Assembly (NCBI RefSeq): GCF_002087085.1
Contig: NZ_MWQY01000011.1
Coordinates: 1-64,000 of the forward strand
Length of the DNA: 64,000 bases
DNA from: Marispirochaeta aestuarii
Lineage (GTDB): Bacteria > Spirochaetota > Spirochaetia > JC444 > Marispirochaetaceae
Direction of reading: 5' to 3'
The notes under the pieces: model-generated
Told to the model about the DNA's origin: nothing
Database searches by the model: none
What the model saw: only the letters and a program-made list of their open reading frames with translations
Position numbers and translations under genes: made by a program
Shown here: positions 1 through 3,783 of the stretch, piece after piece
Numbering within the stretch: the stretch's first letter is position 1
Layout of the letters: each line of letters opens with the position of its first letter

Positions 1-241
1 TGCCGGAGGAGGTAATAAGGTGTGAGAATATCCTCCAATAGGGGACTTTTTTCTTTACGAAAATATCGAGGCTGAAGGTCTGGGAAGAGAAGCCGACACC
101 GCAGTGAAGGCACCGAAAGCGCTGAATCCTGCCGAAAAGCCGGGAAAAATAGCTGCCGTTTCTTACATACCAGGCAGCAGTTTTTGTGGATAGATGATGG
201 TTCCTGCACTCCTTGTTGGGACAGAAGGGGGGATGAAACAT
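1..241 (-). CDS. Transposase-type protein with N-terminal zinc ribbon, partial
   Basis: This is the first 80 codons of a gene that runs off the left edge. It starts at ATG 239-241 after an AAAGGAG ribosome site nine bases upstream. The N-terminus has a CX4C pair (FCPNKEC, residues 6-12) and a CX2C pair (FRCLHC) followed by GVGFSSQTFSLD. The C-x-x-C-G-x-x-F-S-x-Q-T-F-S-x-D pattern is typical of insertion-element proteins with an N-terminal zinc ribbon that I know from treponemes and other bacteria. The DDE or other catalytic part would lie off the window, so the family is not fixed. A 56-codon open frame on the opposite strand is its shadow. Confidence 0.72.
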   Translation of the reverse strand, partial: MFHPPFCPNKECRNHHLSTKTAAWYVRNGSYFSRLFGRIQRFRCLHCGVGFSSQTFSLDIFVKKKVPYWRIFSHLITSSG

Positions 242-246
242 TATAA

Positions 247-300
247 AAACTCCTTTTTTTCAGTGGTTCTACTGCTAAATACCAGTAGAACAAGGAGTTT
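247..300 (-). promoter_or_regulatory. Leader hairpin that can mask the transposase ribosome site
   Basis: On the minus strand AAACTCCTT (300-292) can pair with AAGGAGTTT (255-247), which contains the ribosome site of the zinc-ribbon gene. Inside it GTTCTACTG (291-283... on the plus strand CAGTAGAAC) pairs with its complement at 274-266 around an 8-base loop. Only a transcript starting upstream of 300, for example read-through from lysA, contains both arms. The structure followed by TTTTTATA could also end lysA transcription. Confidence 0.55.
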
Positions 301-310
301 GCTTCAGTTC

Positions 311-333
311 ATCCCCACGGTTCCGAACACTAC
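311..333 (-). repeat. Terminal inverted repeat of the insertion sequence
   Basis: Read on the minus strand this begins GTAGTGTTCGGAACC and ends GTGGGGAT. It matches the left repeat of the element at 3633-3655 at 20 of 23 positions, and the right one (3761-3783, inverted) about as well. A degenerate inverted partner, TGTTGGGACAG...GGGGGATGAA, lies at 214-237. Confidence 0.65.
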
Positions 334-1571
334 ACAAGGGTCGCCAGATAATCCTCCACCGTCTCAGCTCTGCGGATCAGTTCCACGGAGCCGTCCTCTT
401 TAAGCAGCAGTTCAGCGGAACGAAGCTTGGCGTTGTAGTTGAAGCCCATGGCATGGCCGTGGGCCCCGGTGTTGTGGATGGCCAGTATGTCCCCGATCTC
501 CACCTCCGGGATTTTCCGGTCAATGGCGAACTTGTCGTTGTTTTCGCAGAGACTGCCGGTAATGTCCGCGATAAAGGTCGCGGGAGCGTCCTCTTTTCCA
601 AGGACTGTAATATGGTGATAGGCACCGTAGAGGGCAGGACGCATCAGGTTGGCCATGGAGGAATCGAGGCCGATGAAGGTCTTGTAGGTCTCCTTGCGAT
701 GGAGCACTTTCGTAACAAGCCAGCCGTAAGGGCCGGTGACCATGCGGCCGCATTCCATTACGATGCGCATCCCATCAAGGCCAGCAGGTTTAATGGTTTT
801 TTCGTATCGTTTTCGTATTCCCTCCGATACGTATTCCAGATCAACCGGTTTTTCCTCCGGCCGGTAGGGAATCCCTATGCCGCCGCCGAGATTGACGAAC
901 TCCAGCTCGATTCCAAGTTCCTTTTTGAGTTCCACTGCGGTGTCGAAGAGGAGCCCTGCGGTTTCGATAAAATAATCGGGGTTCAGCTCGTTGGATGCCA
1001 CCATAGTGTGAAGGGCAAAGCGCTTTGCCCCCAGATCCCGGACCTTCTTGTAGCCTTCGAAGAGCTGGTCCCTGGTAAAGCCGTATTTGGCCTCCGTGGG
1101 TTTTCCGATAATGTCGTTGCCGCTCTTGAGCTCCCCGGGATTATAGCGGAAGCAGATCAGCTCCGGAATCCCGGCATTTTCCTGCAGATAGTCGATGTGG
1201 GAGATGTCGTCCAGGTTGATTACCGCACCCAGTTCTTTTGCCCTGACGTACTCTGTTGCCGGGGTATCGTTGGAGGTGAACATGACCTCCTCTCCGCTTA
1301 TTCCGGCCATTTCGGAGAGTACCAGCTCTGGCAGGGAGGAGCAGTCGGTCCCCATGCCCTCTTCCCTGAGGATCTGTATGATCCGGGGATTCGGCAATGC
1401 CTTGACGGCGAAGTAGTTCCTGAACCCCCCGGGGACCCAGTCGAAGGCCTTGTAAAACCTGCGGGCATTCTCCCGTATGGCCTTTTCGTCGTAGATGTGG
1501 AAAGGAGTGGGGTAGGTATCGATAATTCTTTCAATCTGTTCTTTTGTAAAAGGTACACTCTGATTACTCAT
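330..1571 (-). CDS. lysA: Diaminopimelate/ornithine-type decarboxylase (LysA family)
   Basis: This 413-residue enzyme belongs to the fold-III PLP decarboxylases, most likely making lysine from meso-diaminopimelate in the cytoplasm. Visible motifs are FAVKALPNP (PLP lysine about K57), the glycine loop GGGIGIP near 229-235, ECGRMVTGPYG near 273 and the catalytic GSLCEN near 339-344. The C-terminal HNTGAHGHAMGFNYN lines the active site. Length is normal. The start has an AAGGACGG ribosome site. The stop codon TAG coincides with the end of the insertion-sequence repeat, so the last residues may have been altered by insertion. A relative with other amino-acid substrates cannot be excluded from sequence alone. 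Confidence 0.85.
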   Translation of the reverse strand: MSNQSVPFTKEQIERIIDTYPTPFHIYDEKAIRENARRFYKAFDWVPGGFRNYFAVKALPNPRIIQILREEGMGTDCSSLPELVLSEMAGISGEEVMFTSNDTPATEYVRAKELGAVINLDDISHIDYLQENAGIPELICFRYNPGELKSGNDIIGKPTEAKYGFTRDQLFEGYKKVRDLGAKRFALHTMVASNELNPDYFIETAGLLFDTAVELKKELGIELEFVNLGGGIGIPYRPEEKPVDLEYVSEGIRKRYEKTIKPAGLDGMRIVMECGRMVTGPYGWLVTKVLHRKETYKTFIGLDSSMANLMRPALYGAYHHITVLGKEDAPATFIADITGSLCENNDKFAIDRKIPEVEIGDILAIHNTGAHGHAMGFNYNAKLRSAELLLKEDGSVELIRRAETVEDYLATLV

Positions 1572-3632: not shown

Positions 3633-3783
3633 ATACTGTTCCGAACCGTGGGGATGGACATCGATCAAAGTATTTTCTGGTAGAGGATTATCTGCTTATT
3701 TATACCGTATTAAGTTTTTTTCCTCAAATTACGGTAGTTCACGATCACCACAACGGTTTTATCCCCACAGTTCGAAACACTAT
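3633..3783. mobile_element. MITE-like element with insertion-sequence ends
   Basis: A 151-bp AT-rich segment bounded by 23-bp inverted repeats: the left contains TGTTCCGAACCGTGGGGAT and the right (inverted) TGTTTCGAACTGTGGGGAT, 20 of 23 matching overall. It has no coding potential. The repeats also match the insertion-sequence end at 311-333. It sits in the divergent region between araC and the NfeD operon. Internal sequence does not visibly resemble the insertion-sequence end, so only the termini are shared. Confidence 0.65.

Follow-up and report, generated by a model that had tools for sequence, protein, structure and literature searches.

A transposase leader of an IS1-like element whose ribosome-binding site is predicted to be closed in read-through RNA

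The transposase leader at the left end of an IS1-like element in Marispirochaeta aestuarii probably shields the element against activation by outside transcription. RNA that reads through from outside, here from lysA, would carry an arm complementary to the ribosome-binding site (the anti-SD arm), and this arm would pair with the site and close it. RNA from the element's own promoter, for which a −10-like hexamer in a hairpin loop is the candidate, would begin past that arm, so that the site stays open. Folding thus predicts that read-through RNA would be poorly translated and that RNA with an internal start would be well translated. The evidence is computational, and consists of the fold itself, the difference in SD accessibility between the two RNAs, and the co-variation of the two arms across a family of related elements.

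The element and its insertion at lysA

The window, by which we mean the whole 64,000-nucleotide stretch analysed, starts at the first base of its contig (G000:C11). Its first ∼330 bases are the left end of the element, on the minus strand and cut by the contig end, its right end not being assembled beside it, so that the IS1-like transposase gene is present only in its 5′ portion (1–241, ATG at 241–239; relatives encode ∼373 aa). lysA, encoding a PLP-dependent decarboxylase (330–1571, minus strand; assigned from Pfam matches and by comparison with lysA of G002, a genome of the same genus), runs directly into the element, and its stop TAG (332–330) is located at the element's edge. An earlier note on this DNA had proposed that lysA is transcribed on the same strand straight into the element, and the coordinates agree with that arrangement.

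The element entered lysA ahead of its last two codons. The product ends in ATLRL, followed by TAA, in G002 and in ATLV, followed by the TAG at the element edge, here; GTG and the edge TAG stand in place of the last two lysA codons and the native stop. The insertion thus split lysA from whatever terminator came after the native stop. Because it both replaced the last two codons and parted lysA from any following terminator, read-through of lysA into the transposase gene would be expected. Downstream of lysA in G002 (L213), a terminal-repeat-like sequence, TAGTGTTCACAAGCGTGGTGATGA, lies just past the gene, which suggests that this site may have been hit repeatedly by elements of such a kind.

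Other left-end copies in the same genome lie on contigs C32 and C7, with a short fragment on C21; a search with the terminal repeat as pattern also turned up right ends, together with many short non-autonomous derivatives. At 3637–3779 of the window there is a 143-bp MITE bounded on each side by the terminal repeat of the element. About ten MITEs like it occur at other places in the genome; their interiors differ, and they lack the hairpin leader. The copy on contig C4 of G002 (L055) has an intact leader and a stop within the transposase frame, and is apparently a decaying copy. Plasmid records gave no match.

Relatives were found in many genomes of the same class; a first search gave 26 of 98 genomes and a second 76 of 395. 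The complete ones have a single open frame for a transposase of 373 aa, whose N-terminal region contains four cysteines and in which acidic and basic residues are strongly conserved. Each of the 11 members scanned matches the NCBIfam IS1 model (NF033558) at E ≤ 0.01 (best 3.3e-11), the part matched being the N-terminal zinc-binding and helix-turn-helix region; L045 scored 31.3 bits against this model, far below its cut-off of 100. No Pfam model reached its cut-off for the single member scanned, a scan of genome contigs for relatives gave three weak distant matches only, and solved structures contained no credible relative.

Target duplications, identified by eye, are AAGCGGTA, AAAATATA and AAAGATTA around the G002 copies and AAAGCTTTG for the C32/C38 pair of the same genome as the window. 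Their length (∼8–10 bp) and that of the terminal repeats (∼20 bp) are as in the IS1 family. Classical IS1, in contrast, has two overlapping frames joined by frameshifting in place of the one 373-aa frame found here. Judged from these sequence features, the family is IS1-like and uncatalogued in the libraries searched.

Predicted fold and accessibility of the ribosome-binding site

All the parts of the leader that the earlier note had placed in order along the minus strand are present. The left terminal repeat, TAGTGTTCGGAACCGTGGGGATGAA (∼332–308), was placed by alignment to the copies in the same genome and in relatives, right ends included; its first TAG is the lysA stop. It is followed by the 9-bp anti-SD arm AAACTCCTT (292–300) and by an inner hairpin with GTTCTACTG as its 5′ side (283–291) and CAGTAGAAC as its 3′ side (266–274), both sides being assigned from the predicted fold and comparison of copies. 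The SD arm AAGGAGTTT (247–255), which is the ribosome-binding site, was assigned from folding.

The minimum-energy fold of RNA 340–200 (−46.8 kcal/mol) is the structure drawn in the earlier note, and it is better than expected from dinucleotide shuffles (z = −3.8; 0 of 200 shuffles were as good). RNAs started at 290 or 268, in contrast, folded no better than shuffles. The probability that the SD is unpaired was 0.01 for RNAs starting from 400 to 300 and 0.5–0.7 for those starting at or after 295. The proposal that read-through RNA buries the ribosome site, and that a transcript starting inside the arm leaves it open, was therefore borne out by folding. The accompanying claim that the start codon would also be buried in the read-through RNA was not: the AUG was computed to be ∼0.67 unpaired, and so mostly open. 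The same switch was obtained with the five nearest leaders, where the SD was unpaired with a probability of 0.00 in read-through RNA and 0.39–0.59 in RNA from the predicted internal start.

Conservation of the arms in close copies

Of the own-genome copies, the three whose leader can be read all keep both SD arms, and the left-end fragment on C21 keeps the anti-SD arm over its readable part. Copies lacking the complementary arm, which the earlier note had named as the result that would speak against it, thus did not appear among the readable own-genome leaders. In the alignment of further copies that it had also called for, both arms were retained, and the SD arms were invariant in the own-genome leaders (n = 3) and in the G002 copies. 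Because of this invariance near-identical copies cannot show co-variation, and a test within them was set aside as uninformative; the changes seen in the inner hairpin were one-sided or pair-breaking. Leaders were therefore compared across the family.

Co-variation of the arms across the family

Clustering at 80% identity left 64 non-redundant leaders from related genomes. In a swap test, the upstream arm of each leader was paired with its own SD arm or with the SD arms of other leaders (10,000 permutations). Own arms paired better across all 64 leaders, with z = −7.05 and 0 of 10,000 permutations as good. The controls were null: z was −1.1 with the upstream arm reversed, −1.8 with it shuffled, and +0.84 for 45 ordinary genes of the window. 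In addition, 17 of the 64 leaders, where ∼3 would be expected, buried the SD more deeply than did at least 95 of 100 shuffled versions of their upstream part.

For 37 nearer leaders, a set picked after inspection of the leaders, z was −6.96, and for the 27 more distant leaders there was no swap-test signal (z = −0.87). As the split was made after the leaders had been read, we take the value for all 64 as the main result. Burial of the SD was only partial in three of the nearer leaders (L064, L068 and L205).

These data bear on whether the complementarity to the purine-rich ribosome site could have arisen by chance. Low SD accessibility does occur elsewhere, as 5 of the 45 ordinary window genes likewise have an SD that is at most 5% unpaired, and the more distant relatives give no signal. 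Against this stand the swap test with its null controls and the conservation of the complementarity in every own-genome copy that can be read as well as in those of G002. We therefore regard chance as a very remote explanation; for the nearer relatives it is already unlikely.

It is also improbable, if slightly less so, that the inverted repeat works at the DNA level (a site to which transposase or a repressor binds, for instance) and that the RNA fold is incidental. The arms do adjoin the terminal repeat and a conserved left-end box, as such a site might. However, the pairing sequence varies among subfamilies while complementarity to the SD is retained, which a binding site would not need, and G-U pairs are among the changes in the inner hairpin. 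Folding and arm co-variation across the family both support burial of the ribosome site by the upstream arm, with the ordinary-gene control null.

The outer pairing with the terminal repeat

The earlier note had also proposed an outer pairing, between GGGGATG within the terminal repeat (310–316) and CATCCCC (229–235; codons 3–5), which begins one codon (TTT) beyond the ATG. The two are paired in the predicted fold. In the nearest copies the pairing is kept with one U-A to U-G change, and one copy has lost the next pair outward (A with U). In the swap test no clear preference for own arms was seen among the closest 17 leaders (z = −0.9) or the nearer 37 (z = −1.0), and the value over all 64 was weak (z = −2.3). 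The proposal thus found no family-level support, and we rejected the pairing of terminal repeat and coding sequence as a conserved feature. The outer pairing may stem from the G-rich repeat together with conserved proline codons, and is possibly incidental.

A candidate internal promoter

Just inside the left terminal repeat lies a −35-like box, CTGAAGCA (300–307; family consensus TTGAAGCA), to which 30 of the 64 leaders match at seven or more of the eight positions. The box occurs at the left end only; right ends have just the terminal repeat beside the stop codon. In an alignment of 28 leaders anchored at the box, TATTTA, 20 nt beyond TTGAAG, was both the best-conserved stretch outside it and the position most like TATAAT. 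In the window this −10-like hexamer (276–281) is preceded by TGG and lies in the hairpin loop, 20 nt after CTGAAG; it was assigned from column conservation and the spacing peak. The two boxes bracket the anti-SD arm. Most of the long leaders from nearer relatives likewise have the predicted SD partner between or at these boxes, upstream of where the transcript is predicted to start.

Because the conserved boxes bracket the arm, an internal promoter would skip it. With the hexamer in the loop of the hairpin (281–276), the predicted transcript start falls at about 267–270, and the RNA would lack the anti-SD arm. A start within the hairpin is therefore plausible for the element's own transcripts. 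From the sequence we infer the promoter and its start point, and likewise the effect of the fold on translation and transposition. The boxes do not fit sigma-70 spacing, the spacer being 20 nt against the canonical ∼17 nt, and a sigma-70 consensus scan gave no promoter.

Three distant relatives (L101, L150 and L181) have short leaders in which a TATAGAGG motif lies ∼20 nt after the TTGAAG box and almost abuts the start codon. The mRNAs of these elements might be leaderless.

A different reading is that the fold acts as a general brake on the translation of all transposase transcripts, that the promoter lies at the terminal repeat or upstream of it, and that antisense RNA or a host factor perhaps opens the brake. 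Burial of the SD needs only RNA from 300 onwards, so a transcript starting in the terminal repeat would be silenced too, and the negative sigma-70 scan also speaks for this reading. Precedents are the documented case of ISPpu9 (PMC8450116) and the occlusion of the ribosome site in IS200, as cited in PMC3196728. Against such a brake stand the conserved −10-like hexamer downstream of the anti-SD arm and the placing of the arm between two conserved boxes in most long nearer-relative leaders, and we consider it a rather unlikely alternative to protection from outside transcription, though the most serious of those weighed here.

Discussion

The hairpin looks like a genuine brake of the IS10/IS50 kind. 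This kind of mechanism is already known, and what appears new is its use in an uncatalogued IS1-like family; the present work adds the family and a test across it. Sequence comparison shows that it is not just a few model elements that bury the ribosome site of their transposase in read-through RNA. The family also supplies many natural variants of the two arms, which makes the idea testable by comparing and swapping them. More tentatively, and with some doubt, we suggest that the anti-SD arm has been built into the spacer between the promoter boxes and kept by co-evolution as the sequence changed, and that some lineages have exchanged the hairpin for a short leader with the −10-like box abutting the start codon, possibly giving a leaderless mRNA.

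In IS10 and IS50, an inverted repeat at the outer end protects the transposase from external transcription, its inner arm covering the ribosome site. Closing of the start codon region by an outer pairing is not a defining feature of that protection. As in those elements, the read-through RNA of the element described here contains both arms, and an inverted-repeat arm covers the ribosome site in it (SD unpaired probability 0.01, with arms that co-vary). The element's own RNA would lack the outer arm if it starts at the candidate promoter. The transposases are unrelated, being IS4-type there and IS1-like here. A further difference is the position of the anti-SD arm here, flanked as it is by two conserved promoter-like boxes.

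IS200 shares a stem-loop that occludes the transposase ribosome site, according to PMC3196728, where a separate hairpin is also said to terminate impinging transcripts; a scan for an intrinsic terminator or terminator-like site found none here. In ISPpu9, too, a fold in the 5′-UTR buries the ribosome site, and mutations that weaken the fold raise expression (PMC8450116). There, however, the fold is part of the mRNA that the element itself makes, and the proposed opener is an antisense RNA (PMC8450116), whereas here the element's own RNA is proposed to start past the anti-SD arm.
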